Assembly (NCBI RefSeq): GCF_001634885.1 | Contig: NZ_LWEX01000146.1 | Coordinates: 1-54,373, forward strand | DNA from: Sulfitobacter sp. HI0040 | Lineage (GTDB): Bacteria > Pseudomonadota > Alphaproteobacteria > Rhodobacterales > Rhodobacteraceae | DNA length: 54,373 nucleotides | Direction: 5' to 3' | Translations under genes and position numbers: made by a program | In this document: positions 26,116-34,220 of the stretch, one piece after another | Layout: the number at the start of each line of letters is the position of its first letter | Numbering within the stretch: position 1 is the first letter of the stretch | The notes under the pieces: generated by a model | The model's database searches: none | What the model saw: only the letters and a program-made list of their open reading frames with translations | Told to the model about the DNA's origin: nothing

Positions 26116-26505
26116 TTATCCTTTCGCGTCGGCAGCCGCTTTGGGCTTGTAGTTTGCGTTCTCGGTGATGCGGGCGGATTTGCCCCGGCGGCTGCGCAGG
26201 TAGTACAGCTTCGCACGGCGCACACGACCGCGGCGCACGACGGTGATGCTGTCGATATTGGTCGAATGCAGGGGGAAGACCCGCTCCACGCCTTCGCCAA
26301 AGCTGATCTTGCGAACGGTGAACGAGCCGGCGATGCCGTGGCCGTTGTTGCGCGCGATGCAGACGCCTTCGTAATTCTGTACCCGTGTGCGTGTGCCTTC
26401 GGTAACCTTGAAGCCGACGCGTACGGTGTCTCCGGCGCGGAAATCAGGAATTTCCTTGCCCAGTTCGGCGATTTGTTCCGCCTCGATCTCTGCGATCAGG
26501 TTCAT
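26116..26505 (-). CDS. rplS: 50S ribosomal protein L19
   Basis: 129 residues with the L19 signatures [22 protein letters not shown] and [23 protein letters not shown]. It lies at the 30S-50S interface. In many bacteria rplS directly follows trmD; here an opposite-strand SDR gene lies between, and a good promoter of its own is seen about 180 nt upstream. A small hairpin lies just before the start. Confidence 0.97.
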
Positions 26506-26526
26506 CTGACCTACTCCTTGAATTGC

Positions 26527-26542
26527 TCGTGGTGTTCCACGA
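26527..26542 (-). other. Hairpin in the rplS leader
   Basis: TCGTGG and CCACGA pair across a 4-nt loop, ending 22 nt before the rplS start on the - strand. It might take part in ribosomal-protein feedback, but there is no direct evidence. Confidence 0.3.
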
Positions 26543-26680
26543 AGTTATTGCGCGACCCAGAGCTTCGGGTACTGTCGGTGCCACCCGTGGGGGCCCGCCG
26601 AAGGTATCGTCGTCCTTGCTTGTTCTCGATCCGCGCACAGCGGAAAGCACCGGAGGCGACGTGCGACTCCGGATCGGCGC

Positions 26681-26709
26681 TCTATAGGCAGGAACGCCGT
26701 GGCGATCAA
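26681..26709 (-). promoter_or_regulatory. Promoter of rplS-rpmE
   Basis: On the - strand TTGATC (26709-26704) and TATAGA (26686-26681) are separated by exactly 17 nt, a good housekeeping-sigma promoter. The transcript would start near 26674 and have a leader of about 170 nt before rplS. This explains how rplS is expressed although it is cut off from the trmD operon. Confidence 0.6.
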
Positions 26710-26821
26710 GAGGAGTCTTGGCAGACGCTTCGGGCGCCTGACGTGGCGTTGGCCGGAAAGGGGCATTGTGCCTCAGGCGCGGCGCATTACGTCGGGTCGC
26801 AAAGATCGAAAGGAGATCTCC

Positions 26822-28534
26822 ATGGTACGCAAGACCCCCGGAACCGCGCTCGTCACCGGTGCCTCCTCCGGCATCGGACGTGAATTCGCCCGCTATCACG
26901 CCTCCAAGGGCGGGGCGGTTATTCTGACCGCACGGCGCGAGGAGGCGCTGGAAAGCCTCAAGGCCGAGATCGAAGAGCGCCACGGGGTGGACGCCCATGT
27001 CTTCGCGCTCGACCTCGGGGCGGCGGGAGGTGCCAAAAAGCTCTATGACGCGGTGAAAGCCGCAGGGCTGGACGTGGATATCCTCATCAACAACGCGGGT
27101 TTCGGCGGGCATGGCGCGCATCTTGACCGCCCGCTTGAAGACGAACTGGCGATGATCGACCTCAACGTGAAGGCGCTGGTCGAACTGACCCACCGGTTCG
27201 GGCAGGATATGGTCGCAGGCGGCGGCGGGCACATCCTGAATGTCGGGTCCACCGCTGGCTTCATGCCCGGTCCGATGCAGGCCACATATTTTGCGACGAA
27301 GGCTTTCGTCAAATCCTTCAGTCAGGCCATCGACCATGAAATGCGCCCCAAGGGCGTCAATTGCACGGTGCTCGCCCCCGGTTACGTCGAAACCGAATTT
27401 GCAGACCGCAGCGATCTGAACGGCACCGATCTGGTCAAGGGCGGGGGTGCCAGCGCAGAAAGCGTCGCCCGCCATGGCTACGACGCGATGATGAAGGAAA
27501 AGCTGGTCACCGTGAACGATCCGAAGCTGAAAATCGCGGTCGACTGGATCATTCCGATGCTGCCGCGTCGTCAGGTGTTGAAGATGGTCAAGGGCATGCA
27601 GACCAAGGAGGGGCAGTCAGCCTTCGGGGGTGTCCTTTCCGTGGCGTTCCCAAAGGTCAGGGCGCCGCTCCCGGGTCAGTTCCTCGGCCCGGGCGCGGCG
27701 CCAGCGCGCAACCTCGGCATGGTTGCCGGATGTCAGCACGGGTGGAATCTCTCGGCCTTCCCAGACGGCGGGGCGGGTATATTGCGGATGTTCCAGAAGG
27801 CCTGCGGAGTGGCTTTCCTCGACCGTGCTTTCGGCGTTGCCCAAAACGCCGGGAAGAAGCCGGACGGTTGCATCGATCATGGCCTGAGCGGCCAGTTCGC
27901 CGCCGGTCATCACGAAATCACCCAGGCTGACCTCGGTTACGCCGAAATGCTCCAGCACACGTTCGTCCACGCCCTCGAAGCGCCCGCAGAGCATCGTGGC
28001 CCCCTGCGCCGCCGCCAAATCACGGGCCATCCCCTGATCGAAGCGCCGCCCGCGCGGCGACATATAGAGCACAGGCCAGCGCCCAGACGCGCGGCTTCCG
28101 GCTTCCTGCAGGGCGGCGCCCACGACATCGGCGCGCATGACCATGCCCGCGCCCCCGCCCGCCGGGGTGTCATCCACGTTCCGGTGCCGCCCGACCCCGT
28201 GTTCGCGCAAATCGATGGTATGCAGTCCCCACAGCCCATCCGACAGGGCGCGCCCGGTGAGGCTGAGGCCGAGTGTGCCGGGAAACGCCTCGGGGAAGAG
28301 CGTGACAACCTGCGCGTGCCAGACATCGCGGGGCAGGGCGGTTTCCGCCATCAGATCCCGCGGCTTTGCGTTCGCCGCCACGCTCTTGCGCCCGTGGGAG
28401 CGGTTCATGGCGGTCATTGGGCAGCCCCCTGCAGAAGCGCTTTCTTCGCGGCACGCCGGTCTTCCGAGTCCTCGATCCGCCGATTGATGCGCAGCAGTTC
28501 CTGCAGGGTATCCGCATCGGGGCGCTTGTTCTGA
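26822..28534 (+). CDS. SDR-family oxidoreductase without a normal stop, open through antisense trmD
   Basis: The first 263 codons (to about 27610) encode a complete classical SDR: TGASSGIGREFARYHASKG near residue 12, NNAGFGG, the serine of LNVGSTAGFMPGP, and YFATK with catalytic Tyr and Lys, ending where relatives end (VLKMVKGMQTK). A strong AAAGGAG precedes the ATG. No stop codon follows: the frame stays open across all of trmD on the opposite strand and part of the next gene, closing only at 28534 (570 residues). The tail is arginine/proline/glycine-rich and looks like antisense of trmD, not protein sequence. Either translation really continues or the stop has been lost. The functional part is the first 263 residues; substrate unknown. 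Confidence 0.7.
   Translation: MVRKTPGTALVTGASSGIGREFARYHASKGGAVILTARREEALESLKAEIEERHGVDAHVFALDLGAAGGAKKLYDAVKAAGLDVDILINNAGFGGHGAHLDRPLEDELAMIDLNVKALVELTHRFGQDMVAGGGGHILNVGSTAGFMPGPMQATYFATKAFVKSFSQAIDHEMRPKGVNCTVLAPGYVETEFADRSDLNGTDLVKGGGASAESVARHGYDAMMKEKLVTVNDPKLKIAVDWIIPMLPRRQVLKMVKGMQTKEGQSAFGGVLSVAFPKVRAPLPGQFLGPGAAPARNLGMVAGCQHGWNLSAFPDGGAGILRMFQKACGVAFLDRAFGVAQNAGKKPDGCIDHGLSGQFAAGHHEITQADLGYAEMLQHTFVHALEAPAEHRGPLRRRQITGHPLIEAPPARRHIEHRPAPRRAASGFLQGGAHDIGAHDHARAPARRGVIHVPVPPDPVFAQIDGMQSPQPIRQGAPGEAEAECAGKRLGEERDNLRVPDIAGQGGFRHQIPRLCVRRHALAPVGAVHGGHWAAPCRSAFFAARRSSESSIRRLMRSSSCRVSASGRLF
27617..28417 (-). CDS. trmD: tRNA (guanine-N1)-methyltransferase TrmD
   Basis: 266 residues with the trefoil-knot SPOUT signatures: HNPDDTP-like HRNVDDTPAGGGAGMVM, YMSPRGRRFDQ, LCGRFEGVDERV and DFVMTGGELAAQ. 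It methylates G37 of tRNAs reading CNN codons. The start at 28417 overlaps the stop of the gene before it (ATGA); about 30 N-terminal residues precede the core domain, as I believe is usual in this family of bacteria. The whole gene lies antisense to the stop-less SDR frame. Confidence 0.96.
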   Translation of the reverse strand: MTAMNRSHGRKSVAANAKPRDLMAETALPRDVWHAQVVTLFPEAFPGTLGLSLTGRALSDGLWGLHTIDLREHGVGRHRNVDDTPAGGGAGMVMRADVVGAALQEAGSRASGRWPVLYMSPRGRRFDQGMARDLAAAQGATMLCGRFEGVDERVLEHFGVTEVSLGDFVMTGGELAAQAMIDATVRLLPGVLGNAESTVEESHSAGLLEHPQYTRPAVWEGREIPPVLTSGNHAEVARWRRARAEELTRERRPDLWERHGKDTPEG

Positions 28535-29199
28535 GGTGCCACCGGTTCGACGGCCGCGATCAGTTCATCAGGCAAGTCGCACAGCCGCAGCAAATCACCC
28601 GCCGGTCCCAACGGGTCATCGGCGCAGTCTTCCAGCCGGGTCACGTGAACGGGGCAGGGAACACGGCTCGCGATTTCGGCTGCCATGTCATCCAGCGCGG
28701 GAGCTTGCGGGTATAGTTCGGCAAAGCGCTCGTAATCCATGGTCATGTCAGAGCTTTTGACGTGTTCCCAATAGGCGGAGGCGCGCCATTCCGCGGCGTC
28801 GCGTGTCGTCAGATAGATCATGATGTCAGCCGCGGGGAAACGCCGCGCCGCGATGTCGCGCAGAACATAAAGCAGTTCGGGTGCCGCCCCGTAATCGGAG
28901 AGATCGCCCCGGCCCGGCAGATGGCCGCAAAGCTCCTCCGCCGATAGGATCAGGCTGCGGCGCGGCATGCCGGGCAGATCGTCGAGCAGGGCGGCAAAGC
29001 GGTCTTCGACCTTGATCATCGTCAGTGGATCGCGCCAGGTGGAATATCCCCGTGTCGCATGCAGAAGGTCGCGCATCTGGGCGCGCAGGCGGATCGCCAC
29101 ATGCTGTTTGAGCGTGGCGCGGTTCGTTCGCAGGATCGCCTGCACCGTCTTCGTTCCGGTCTTGTGAAAGCCCGCATGCAGGATGATCCGGCGCGGCAT
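28414..29199 (-). CDS. Sulfotransferase-like P-loop protein
   Basis: 261 residues. The N-terminal HAGFHKTGTKTVQ resembles the 5'-PSB loop of PAPS-dependent sulfotransferases, and later VLRDIAARRFPAADIMIYLTTRD fits the second nucleotide-binding part. Many such proteins in marine alphaproteobacteria have no known acceptor. It lies between rimM and trmD with ATGA overlaps on both sides, so it is translated with tRNA and ribosome maturation genes. That placement is odd for a sulfotransferase. Confidence 0.78.
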   Translation of the reverse strand: MPRRIILHAGFHKTGTKTVQAILRTNRATLKQHVAIRLRAQMRDLLHATRGYSTWRDPLTMIKVEDRFAALLDDLPGMPRRSLILSAEELCGHLPGRGDLSDYGAAPELLYVLRDIAARRFPAADIMIYLTTRDAAEWRASAYWEHVKSSDMTMDYERFAELYPQAPALDDMAAEIASRVPCPVHVTRLEDCADDPLGPAGDLLRLCDLPDELIAAVEPVAPQNKRPDADTLQELLRINRRIEDSEDRRAAKKALLQGAAQ

Positions 29200-29720
29200 C
29201 AGTCCTCGTCCGGCCCGGGCAGGACACCCAGCGGCGGATCGGCGATGATGCGCCCTGCCGAAAGGTCCACGGTAGGGACGGCGCTGCGGGTAAAGGGCAG
29301 GTAGACCGTGGCGGAGCTTCCGGCCAGCTGGAGTTCGAGCAGATCGTCCGCGCCGTGGTTCTGCACCGTCCGGACTTTGCCGATGAGGGTGCCGCCGGTG
29401 TCGTATACCTCCAGCCCGATGAGATCGGCGTGGTAGAATTCATCGTCCGGAAGCGATGGCAGATCGCCCCGTGCTGCATAGAGGTCGACGCCGCGCAACG
29501 CGTCCGCCTCTTCCTTGGTCGACACTTCGGCGATACGGGCGGCGAAGCCGTTCTTGATGGGGCGCAGGATGGCCAGGGCAAAGCTGCGCGCTCCTGCCGC
29601 ATCCGTGAGGGGGCTGTAGGTTTCGATATCCTCCGGATTGGCGCAGAAGCTCTTCACGCGCACTTCGCCCCGCACCCCATAGGCGCCGGCGATGGCCCCC
29701 ACGCACACCCTGTCCGTCAT
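29199..29720 (-). CDS. rimM: Ribosome maturation factor RimM
   Basis: 173 residues. The N-terminal [19 protein letters not shown] and the PRC-barrel portion [24 protein letters not shown] are typical. RimM binds ribosomal protein S19 and helps 30S head assembly. I set the start at 29720, because there it overlaps the stop of the small membrane protein (ATGA) and matches the family N-terminus; the longer frame is rejected. Confidence 0.95.
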
Positions 29721-29869
29721 TGCAAAAGCTCCGAGCCCACGCAGATCGTGCCGGTCCACTGGCCTTCGCCCGCGCTGCATTCGCCCCGCATGAGCGAGCG
29801 TTCGAAGAGGACGCCCATGAAGAAGCCGACCGCCATTACCATGATCATTATGCCCATCCGCAATATCAT
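29717..29869 (-). CDS. Small single-pass membrane protein
   Basis: 50 residues. A hydrophobic helix of about 20 residues ([18 protein letters not shown]) is followed by a short tail with two cysteines ([10 protein letters not shown] and TICVGSE). It starts inside the bluB stop and ends inside the rimM start (both ATGA), which makes it very likely translated. A GAGGAG is only 2 nt before the first ATG, so a start 12 nt further in is possible. Function unknown; the cysteines could sit in the periplasm as a disulfide. Confidence 0.65.
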
Positions 29870-30495
29870 CGCTCCTCGATCCGCAGGGCGGGGGCGCGCG
29901 TCTCCCATCCCTTGGTTTCAAGTTCCGGGGTCAGGGATACATCCTGTGGCCAGCCAAGGCAAAGATAACCGATCAGTTTCCAGTCTTCCGGCAGGTCAAG
30001 ATCCGCTGTCAGCCGGTCGGGATCGAGGATCGAGACCCAGCCCAGTCCCAGACCATGGGCGCGGGCGGTCAACCACATCAAATTGATCGCCCCCACAACG
30101 GAATAGCGCCGCATCTCGGGCATGGTGGCGGCCCCCAGCCCGTGGCCCTTGGTGGTCGCGTCATCGCAAAAAACGGCGAGATGTTCGGGCGCGTCCCGCA
30201 GACCGGCGAGTTTAAGCGAGGCATAGCGTTCCGCGCGCTCCCCCTCATAGCCCGAAAGCGCCTTGGTATTGGCATCGAGGAAATTGGCGAGTGCTGCATC
30301 CCGCGCGGATTGCGAGCGCACCTTCACGATGCGCCACGGTTCGGACAATCCTACGGAGGGGGCAAGGTTGAACGCGTCAAGGCAGACATCCAGCAGGGCC
30401 GGGTCCACCGGATCCTTGCGGAAATGGCGCACGTCGCGCCGCCAGCGCATCAGGTCGTGCAGCCCGGCACGGAAGTCTTTCGAGAACCGCTCCAT
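29866..30495 (-). CDS. bluB: 5,6-dimethylbenzimidazole synthase BluB
   Basis: 209 residues of the nitroreductase fold with the BluB motifs RWRRDVRHF near residue 17, [13 protein letters not shown] and [12 protein letters not shown]. It breaks down reduced FMN with O2 to form the lower ligand of cobalamin. The start at 30495 is 17 nt behind rpsP; the longer frame upstream is rpsP in another frame. Finding it inside the rpsP-rimM-trmD operon links B12 ligand supply to ribosome expression. Other B12 genes in the window (cbiB, cobD) lie 15 kb away. Confidence 0.92.
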
Positions 30496-31730: not shown

Positions 31731-33223
31731 TTCTTCTTCCCGAACCCCGAAAGGCCGGGGGGCAGGCCCATGCCGCCGCCCATACCGCCAAGCCCGCCGG
31801 GTAGCTTGCCGCCCATCTGCTTGGCCGCGGCTTCCAATGCCTTCGGGTCCATCTGGGACGGGTCCATGCCGCCCTTGCCCATCATGCCCTTCATCGCCTG
31901 CTTGAGCATGCCGCCTTTACCCATCTTGCCCATCTTCTTCATCATGTCGGACATCTGGCGGTGCATCTTCATCAGCTTGTTGAGTTCGGAGACCTCAAGC
32001 CCCGCCCCCTTGGCGATACGCTTCTTGCGGCTTGCCTGAAGAAGCTGCGGATTGGCGCGCTCCTTCTTGGTCATGGACTGGATCAGGGCGATCTGATGCT
32101 TGAGTATCTTGTCGTCGAAGCCCGCGTCCTCGACCTGTTTGGCCATTTTGCCCATGCCGGGCATCATGCCCATCATGCCCTGCATGCCGCCCATCTTGAT
32201 CATCTGTTCAAGCTGCATTTTCAGGTCGTTCATGTTGAACTGACCCTTGGCCATGCGCTTCATCATCTTCTCGGCCTGTTCGGCCTCGATCGTCTGCTGT
32301 GCCTTTTCGACCAGTGCGACGATGTCGCCCATGCCGAGGATACGGCCCGCGATGCGCTCGGGCTCGAAGGTTTCGAGCGCATCCATCTTCTCGCCCAGAC
32401 CGACGAATTTGATCGGTTTGCCCGTCACGGCCCGCATGGACAGCGCAGCACCGCCGCGGCCGTCGCCGTCCATCCGGGTCAGGACCACGCCGGAGATGCC
32501 GATGCGCTCATCGAAGTTCTGCGCGGTATGCACCGCGTCCTGACCGGTGAGTCCGTCCACTACCAGCAGCGTTTCGCGCGGATTGGCGACATCGCGGACC
32601 GCTTCGACCTGCGCCATCAACTCTTCGTCGATCGACAGGCGGCCCGCGGTATCGAGCATGTAGACGTCGTAACCGCCCAGCCCCGCCTGCGTCTTGGCGC
32701 GTTTGGCGATGGCCACTGGGTCTTCGCCTTTTACGATGGGCAGCGTATCAACGCCGATCTGCTGCCCGAGAATGGCGAGCTGTTCCATGGCAGCGGGGCG
32801 GTTCACGTCGAGCGAGGCCATCAGCACGCGCTTGCCGTCGCGGTCTTTCAACCGCTTGGCCAGTTTCGCCGTTGTCGTCGTCTTGCCGCCACCTTGCAGG
32901 CCGACCATCAGGATCGGCGCTGGCGGATTGTCGATCTTCAGGGCGCCGGGTTCGCCTTCGCCGGTCAAGGTATCAATCAGTGCGTCGTGCACGATCTTGA
33001 CGACCTGCTGGCCCGGCGTGATCGATTTGGTCACCGCCTGCCCGGTGGCCTGATCCTGCACCGCTTTCACGAAATCGCGCGCCACGGGCAGCGAAACGTC
33101 GGCTTCCAGCAGGGCGACCCGCACTTCGCGCAATGCGGTTTTCACGTCCTCTTCGGACAGGGCGCCCTGCTTGGTGAGGCGGTCGAATACGCCGGACAGG
33201 CGTTCGCTCAGGTTCTCGAACAT
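31727..33223 (-). CDS. ffh: Signal recognition particle protein Ffh
   Basis: 498 residues. N-domain, GTPase domain (P-loop GLQGGGKTTTTAKLA, then DTAGRLSIDEELM and TRMDGDGRGGAALSM) and a methionine-rich M domain from about residue 330, ending in a Gly/Met/Pro tail with GMGGGMGLPPGLSGFGKKK. With 4.5S RNA it targets membrane proteins. It heads the long - strand operon, with a good promoter 37-65 nt upstream of its start. Confidence 0.97.
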   Translation of the reverse strand: MFENLSERLSGVFDRLTKQGALSEEDVKTALREVRVALLEADVSLPVARDFVKAVQDQATGQAVTKSITPGQQVVKIVHDALIDTLTGEGEPGALKIDNPPAPILMVGLQGGGKTTTTAKLAKRLKDRDGKRVLMASLDVNRPAAMEQLAILGQQIGVDTLPIVKGEDPVAIAKRAKTQAGLGGYDVYMLDTAGRLSIDEELMAQVEAVRDVANPRETLLVVDGLTGQDAVHTAQNFDERIGISGVVLTRMDGDGRGGAALSMRAVTGKPIKFVGLGEKMDALETFEPERIAGRILGMGDIVALVEKAQQTIEAEQAEKMMKRMAKGQFNMNDLKMQLEQMIKMGGMQGMMGMMPGMGKMAKQVEDAGFDDKILKHQIALIQSMTKKERANPQLLQASRKKRIAKGAGLEVSELNKLMKMHRQMSDMMKKMGKMGKGGMLKQAMKGMMGKGGMDPSQMDPKALEAAAKQMGGKLPGGLGGMGGGMGLPPGLSGFGKKK

Positions 33224-33259
33224 GGGCCTATGCCCCCTCTGGTCGGTTGCGACCCAACC

Positions 33260-33288
33260 TATCTAGGAAGGATCGCGTTGTGTCGCAA
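33260..33288 (-). promoter_or_regulatory. Promoter of the ffh-trmD operon
   Basis: On the - strand TTGCGA (33288-33283) and TAGATA (33265-33260) are spaced by 17 nt, ahead of ffh by a leader of roughly 30 nt. The -10 is close to consensus. It is the only good candidate in front of this operon. Confidence 0.5.
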
Positions 33289-33316
33289 ACCCGCCCCCGG
33301 CCCGTGCCGAAGAGAC

Positions 33317-33332
33317 GAAACCAACTGGTTTC
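33317..33332. repeat. Palindrome in the ffh-azoR intergenic region
   Basis: GAAACCA and TGGTTTC flank AC. Together with a TCCCCGC/GCGGGGA hairpin at about 33370-33388, it gives the 297-nt gene-free stretch between azoR and ffh several stable stems. No coding frame is supported there. Confidence 0.45.
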
Positions 33333-33443
33333 GCCCCCACGGGCGTAACACGCTGGTGGGGGGCGATCCCCGCGCCGGGCGGGGACCGGAAGGCGATGCT
33401 CCCGGAAGTCGGGTTGCCATACGCAAGCAGGCATCAAGAGTCA

Positions 33444-33473
33444 ACGGCCCCGACGCAGGCGCGCCGGGGCCGT
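33444..33473 (-). terminator. Likely terminator of azoR
   Basis: A 9-bp GC-rich stem (ACGGCCCCG/CGGGGCCGT) with a 12-nt loop, 47 nt past the azoR stop on the - strand. The T-run behind it is poor (TTGACTCTTG), so termination may depend on Rho. Confidence 0.5.
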
Positions 33474-33520
33474 CAAACGGAACTGTATCAGCGGGAGCTT
33501 CGCCCCGCCTAAAGCGGATG

Positions 33521-34105
33521 TCAGGCGGCGGCCTTGAGTTCGCCAATCTGTTCATGCGCCTTGGCCACGGTGCCTTCGGCGTCCTGTGCCAGCGCGTCGG
33601 CGGCGACGAAGGTCACATCCGTGATGCCCATGAAGCCGAGAATGAATTTCAGGTAGCCGGTGTTGAAGTCCATGTCGGACCCGATTGGCGTTCCGCCGGA
33701 GGCCATGGCGACGATCGCGCGCTTGCCTTCCAACAGGCCTTCGGGGCCATTCTCGGTATAGCGGAAGGTTTCGCCTGCCCGCGCCACAAGGTCGATCCAT
33801 GCCTTGAGCGATGCGGGCACGGTGAAGTTATAGACAGGCGCGCCGAGCACGATGGTATCGGCGGCACGCAGTTCCGCGATCAGTTCATCGGATTGCTTGA
33901 GCGCCTCTTTCTGTTCGTCGCTGCGGCCTTCCGCCGGGGCGAAGTTGGCCTGCTGCCACGTGTTCGTGATCTGGGGCAGGGGAGTGCGCGCGAGGTCCCG
34001 GACGGTGACGTCGGAATCGCCCAACTGCTCCACGATCTTGTCCGTGAGATCCCGGGTAACGGATGTCTCGGTATTGGCGGAGGAGTCGATGCGAAGAATG
34101 GCCAT
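33521..34105 (-). CDS. azoR: FMN-dependent NADH-azoreductase
   Basis: 194 residues, flavodoxin-like fold. The N-terminal ILRIDSSANTETSVTRDLTDK and the FMN-binding LGAPVYNFTVPASLKAWIDLVARAGETFRYTENGPEGLLEGKRA with ASGGTPIGSDMDF are typical. It reduces quinones or azo compounds with NADH, protecting against electrophiles. It is divergent from a LysR-type gene, which likely controls it. Confidence 0.94.
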   Translation of the reverse strand: MAILRIDSSANTETSVTRDLTDKIVEQLGDSDVTVRDLARTPLPQITNTWQQANFAPAEGRSDEQKEALKQSDELIAELRAADTIVLGAPVYNFTVPASLKAWIDLVARAGETFRYTENGPEGLLEGKRAIVAMASGGTPIGSDMDFNTGYLKFILGFMGITDVTFVAADALAQDAEGTVAKAHEQIGELKAAA

Positions 34106-34220
34106 GTAAGGTTCCTTTCAATGGGTGCTGTTGTCTGTTGTTAGCCAAAATGGTTCTTGCATCGGCAAACACAACGATCAGAATGATCAGCATCATGTTC
34201 ATTCATGCACAGGTTAGCCG

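Follow-up and report, generated by a model that had tools for sequence, protein, structure and literature searches.

Contig NZ_LWEX01000146.1 of Sulfitobacter sp. HI0040, of which positions 1 to 54,373 were analysed and are referred to here as the window, carries on its plus strand an SDR gene whose reading frame runs on without a stop codon opposite the whole of trmD. This arrangement raises the question of whether the stop of the SDR gene has been lost in the genome and the frame beyond it is open by chance, whether the stop is missing in the record only, or whether the frame opposite trmD has a function of its own. The frame starts with ATG at 26822 and closes with TGA at 28532 to 28534 on the plus strand, giving 570 codons as read from the ORF. 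This agrees with the first-pass annotation, in which an SDR frame without a stop up to 28534, across all of trmD in antisense direction, had been described. The features of the region are listed below, with the basis of each assignment in brackets.

26116 to 26505, minus strand: rplS, ribosomal protein L19 (TIGR01024.1, E 6.6e-45)
26681 to 26709, minus strand: promoter-like site of rplS, TTGATC, 17 bases, TATAGA (alignment with 19 relatives)
26809 to 26815, plus strand: Shine-Dalgarno sequence AAAGGAG of the SDR gene (sequence)
26822 to 27607, plus strand: body of the SDR gene, codons 1 to 262, intact (Pfam, homologues, AlphaFold2)
27608 to 27616, plus strand: codons 263 to 265, sense here and the usual stop site in homologues (homologue comparison)
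27617 to 28534, plus strand: read-on tail, ending with TGA (antisense to trmD and, further on, to the last part of the following gene)
27617 to 28417, minus strand: trmD, tRNA (guanosine(37)-N1)-methyltransferase (NCBIfam NF000648.1, 289 bits at a cut-off of 220)
28414 to 29199, minus strand: gene between rimM and trmD, sulfotransferase-like by eye, its stop overlapping the trmD start (conservation)

The SDR gene and its surroundings

The family adh_short (PF00106) covers residues 8 to 196 of the SDR (E 6e-47; 160.1 bits at a cut-off of 26.6). In an alignment of 21 sequences, the body shows TGASSGIG, NNAGFGG and YFATK, which we take to be SDR motifs, the first representing TGxxxGxG and the last YxxxK, presumably the catalytic one. 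A single AlphaFold2 model was built from 21 sequences, those of the window and of 20 relatives, and its pLDDT is mostly above 90 through residue 263. The glycine-rich motif, NNAG and YxxxK as well as the confidently predicted structure of residues 4 to 263 are thus shared with the classical SDR family, whereas the record of the window's gene differs in having no stop after the domain. Assignment to the mycolate reductase equivalog NF040690 was rejected, as the 187.4 bits obtained lie below the curated cut-off of 380.

The usual end of the gene was established from 63 distinct homologue loci with 44 to 73% identity to the window's SDR, the closest one being 73% identical; this count excludes repeats of identical DNA, hits below 43% identity (the other SDRs of the same genome included) and the record of the window itself. 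In query positions, stops are found at codon 263 in 32 loci, at 264 in 14, at 265 in nine, at 266 in three, at 262 in three, and at 268 and 251 in one each. The domain therefore ends where the first-pass annotation had placed its completion, at about codon 263, with 62 of the 63 homologues stopping at codons 262 to 268. The outlier with a stop at 251 is the MAG locus L048, which contains an internal stop as well. A tail of 300 residues is present in none of the 63. In the window, every one of the codons 263 to 266 (27608 to 27619) is a sense codon, 27617 to 27619 being the complement of the trmD stop. Since homologues end at codons 262 to 268 while codons 263 to 266 are sense here, the stop is missing from an otherwise ordinary domain. 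The other two plus-strand frames are also open for a long way after the end of the SDR, as had been pointed out, and reach stops at 27885, after 92 codons, and at 27928, after 106.

Differences by codon position in the SDR body amount to 0.254/0.189/0.582, compared with 0.257/0.185/0.578 in the others. The body thus diverges like the others, which points to normal constraint until recently. A second SDR with a long frame (genome G266, locus L098; 916 aa from a TTG) was considered as a parallel case and discarded, as its extension lies upstream, antisense to another gene, and it has no tail.

The occurrence of the SDR gene is patchy. It was found in 25 of 62 genomes of the genus (E 1e-50) and in 19 of 248 genomes of the family (E 1e-60), the own genome included in both cases. 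In the other 24 SDR-bearing genomes of the genus, the SDR gene and trmD are on different contigs or separated by more than 300 kb. The one exception is G313 (the locus also labelled L066, Sulfitobacter marinus), in which about 2 kb separate the two and the SDR gene lies beyond rplS. It abuts trmD in none of these 24 genomes, and the overlap is not kept in relatives.

In the window, the SDR gene separates trmD from rplS, as stated in the first-pass annotation, and the interval between the two is about 1.1 kb. That both genes are usually adjacent does not hold for the genus, in which the interval proved variable in 20 regions fetched from the 59 relatives with trmD. In these regions, rplS has the direction of trmD and starts less than 600 bp downstream in six cases, has that direction at a distance of 1.2 to 3.1 kb in ten, is reversed in three, and falls outside the fetched stretch in one. 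In L123 to L142, the interval varies in length and content, with about 0.2 to 3 kb in the same-direction cases, and in L066 it harbors a 331-aa ORF which is purC-like by eye. As length and content differ among members of the genus, the interval seems to be a frequent insertion site.

The promoter-like site of rplS is located between the SDR gene and rplS. Among the 19 aligned relatives, TTGAT is found in all 19 and CCTATA in 17 (L132 and L133 vary), and the window has both; the site is absent from the consensus scan, which demands a final T in the second hexamer. Since this site is kept, rplS is probably independent of trmD transcription. The leader of rplS (26506 to 26710, minus strand) is conserved in the window and the 19 aligned relatives and includes an invariant CCGAAGCT as well as a hairpin TTCGTGG...CC[AG]CGA immediately 5′ of the Shine-Dalgarno sequence. 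In the RNAalifold prediction, an upstream CTYC pairs with the GGAG of the Shine-Dalgarno sequence, with two-sided changes in none of 13 pairs, and the leader has no match in Rfam. It is possibly an autoregulatory leader of L19. On the other side of trmD, the gene at 28414 to 29199 has a counterpart next to trmD in 26 of 30 relative loci with 53 to 65% identity, in some of them with a second, diverged copy adjoining; it has no family match in Pfam or NCBIfam.

Openness of the frame opposite trmD and proposed loss of the stop

Up to 28417, the codons of the tail are the reverse complements of trmD codons, so that both frames share one register. Past trmD, the tail continues for 38 codons opposite the 3′ end of the adjoining minus-strand gene, in another phase. 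Because of the codon-on-codon register, a stop of the tail opposite trmD is possible only where trmD uses TTA, CTA or TCA. Of the 15,447 codons in the 51 genes called in the window, 63 are TTA, CTA or TCA (0.41%, i.e. p 0.0041), and the probability that 266 codons remain open is 0.34 in the codon-aligned phase, a figure valid for that phase only. It is a general feature of G+C-rich genomes that codon bias yields long antisense open frames.

The genes of the window behave in this manner. Of 33 called genes of at least 200 codons, trmD and the SDR among them, 11 have no stop at all in the codon-aligned antisense phase; without trmD, the count is 10 of 32. An open antisense run of 266 codons is found in 18 of the 28 called genes of at least 266 codons, trmD included. 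These final counts are based on a codon-trained gene caller, with trmD and the SDR body entered by hand where the long frame had been chosen, and on an incomplete list, from which the genes at 28414 to 29199 and 29866 to 30495 were missing. A simple gene caller preferred the long SDR frame to trmD and took several antisense frames as genes. A frame of 727 aa starting with GTG (779 codons from stop to stop; window 31961 to 34144, plus strand), which is longer than the SDR tail, is located opposite ffh and its neighbor, where no plus-strand gene was called; it is an example of openness caused by codon bias. The SDR tail has the codon-on-codon openness across whole genes in common with such frames but differs from them in that a real gene runs into the open frame.

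A hypothetical loss of the plus-strand stop was considered for the ten convergent gene pairs of the window and would add 11 to 314 codons, more than 300 of them in two pairs (SDR/trmD and 38800/39412) and fewer than 80 in eight. With its length, the tail reaches the upper end of the range given by stop loss here and lies within chance.

Comparisons within the genus extend these counts to the trmD locus itself. The antisense strand of trmD is fully open in two of 30 loci examined in full. Across 59 relatives, the frame of the tail contains stops in 55 and is open over the matched span in four, the SDR being present there in none of the four. One of these four, genome G307, has an open frame of 646 codons opposite trmD and gave no match to the SDR at E 1e-50. 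In the window, the third positions of trmD have a G+C content of 79%, the third highest of 30, which fits the absence of TTA, CTA and TCA from this gene.

With modest confidence, we favor the explanation that the SDR stop was lost in the genome and that the frame of the tail is open by chance. An ordinary SDR gene of patchy occurrence would have come to face trmD tail to tail, the two being separated by hardly any spacer, and a point change or a small change at the junction would have removed the stop of the SDR gene. The read-on would then enter the chance-open, codon-aligned antisense of trmD, pass through 266 codons, continue for 38 more and end at the TGA; the 266 codons opposite trmD would be open owing to the rarity of TTA, CTA and TCA in a G+C-rich genome. 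The product may be an SDR carrying a disordered extension at its C terminus; on an mRNA that ends short of 28534, ribosomes may instead stall, followed by tagging by tmRNA. A gene for an alpha-type tmRNA is present in the genome. It speaks against this account that the right phase is needed in addition, since eight of the ten convergent pairs gain fewer than 80 codons.

A tentative but serious alternative is a fault of base calling or assembly at 27608 to 27619, so that the true SDR would stop at about codon 263 to 266 and the long frame would exist in the record only. One wrong base is sufficient for this, and the assembly is fragmentary, comprising 611 contigs. However, in ffh, rpsP, rimM, trmD and rplS the frames are open and alignment with relatives extends over most of each gene, so that no sign of frequent errors is seen nearby. 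What the analysis shows directly is the absent stop, the position at which homologues end, the openness due to codon bias and a tail that is not conserved; a true loss of the stop in the organism, and its effect, are inferred.

Possible coding or regulation by the tail

In the favored account, the tail is a chance translation and not an evolved protein domain, and no evidence for a protein was obtained. It has no match in Pfam, NCBIfam or PDB sequences. Conservation as a protein was considered, as 60 of 62 genomes of the genus (own included) have a match to the frame, and rejected, since these matches reflect the antisense of trmD. In the AlphaFold2 model, pLDDT is below 50 almost throughout from residue 264; this is weak evidence, because the tail is covered by the window's sequence only and any orphan sequence is expected to score low. 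The G+C content by codon position in the tail (0.79/0.53/0.75) says little by itself, as it mirrors trmD by construction. In addition, composition was given no weight, since a review (PMC7457138) argues that unusual codon use hardly speaks against a function of antisense frames.

The divergence of trmD bears on the same matter. With 267 codons including the stop, its length corresponds to the 257 to 268 codons of 30 relatives, counted from the aligned start, and its identity to orthologues of the genus is 70 to 77%. The protein is the most diverged of 21, with a mean distance of 0.251 versus 0.155 to 0.197 for the 20 relatives of the genus; rplS, ffh, rpsP, rimM and the gene between rimM and trmD occupy the second to twelfth ranks. 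The excess divergence is confined to residues 1 to 140, and it stems from the first and second positions of codons. At the third positions of trmD, which are the first positions of the tail, the difference to 29 relatives is 0.537, compared with 0.487 among the relatives, both being raw means in a set in which no pair of relatives is as diverged as the window's trmD. For residues 141 to 266, in which trmD diverges at the ordinary rate, the values by codon position are 0.150/0.127/0.526 for the window and 0.150/0.108/0.484 for the mean of the relatives, whose third positions range from 0.439 to 0.545. As the third positions are no less diverged than among relatives, no added constraint from the tail is seen. 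Dividing third-position differences by those at the first and second positions combined gives 1.39, versus 2.10 among relatives, a lowering that double coding could also give. Separately, trmD of G310 (G310:C1:1866288-1867048) gave a match split into two overlapping parts, suggestive of a frameshift, in a genome listed as 100% complete.

Against this background, it is very improbable that the 570-residue protein is made with a functional C-terminal segment born from the antisense of trmD. The frame is fully open and closes with a proper stop, and a consensus scan, of a type that misses many sites, listed no terminator-like site on the plus strand from 26917 to 29300. The high rank of trmD in divergence and the lowered share of third-position differences are readable as double coding, and the odd codon use hardly counts against function, according to PMC7457138. 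All this is opposed by the lack of the tail in every homologue and of any family match, by third positions of trmD that are unconstrained in absolute terms, by the confinement of the excess divergence to residues 1 to 140 and, weakly, by the absence of a confident fold from the model. We give hardly any credence to the extended version of this proposal either, in which a newborn segment of about 305 residues arose from the antisense of trmD and the divergence of trmD is its adjustment to double coding. Concerning the two options offered in the first-pass annotation, a lost stop thus finds support, and a meaningful tail of 300 residues does not.

It is likewise most unlikely that SDR transcription through the antisense of trmD controls trmD: overlapping transcription of neighbors is discussed as regulatory in PMC7154746, and no terminator-like site is listed between the SDR gene and trmD, but the arrangement occurs in one genome, the SDR not lying against trmD in the other 24 SDR-bearing genomes of the genus, and therefore provides no conservation argument for regulation. 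The region has no match in Rfam.

Relation to known overlaps

Mutation of a stop codon as a route to gene overlaps is described in PMC2174442 and in PMC4161906. With convergent overlaps of this origin, as presented in these two papers and as class iii in PMC2478687, the SDR/trmD pair shares a read-on opposite the convergent neighbor to a chance stop. As in class iii, the 3′ end of the SDR gene exceeds that of its orthologues and trmD has a normal length. In contrast to these overlaps, the one described here spans the entire neighbor, which results from the codon-aligned phase together with the rarity of TTA, CTA and TCA. Among the literature matches listed, none deals with a convergent stop-loss arrangement of an SDR gene and trmD. 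The event, a probable stop loss, is of a known kind and its length is ordinarily explained.

For the annotation of G+C-rich genomes, this locus calls for caution, as one lost stop can produce an apparent fusion of 300 codons across a neighboring gene. If the loss is real, Sulfitobacter sp. HI0040 would offer a natural case in which an extended protein can be set against ribosome rescue after a very long antisense read-on.
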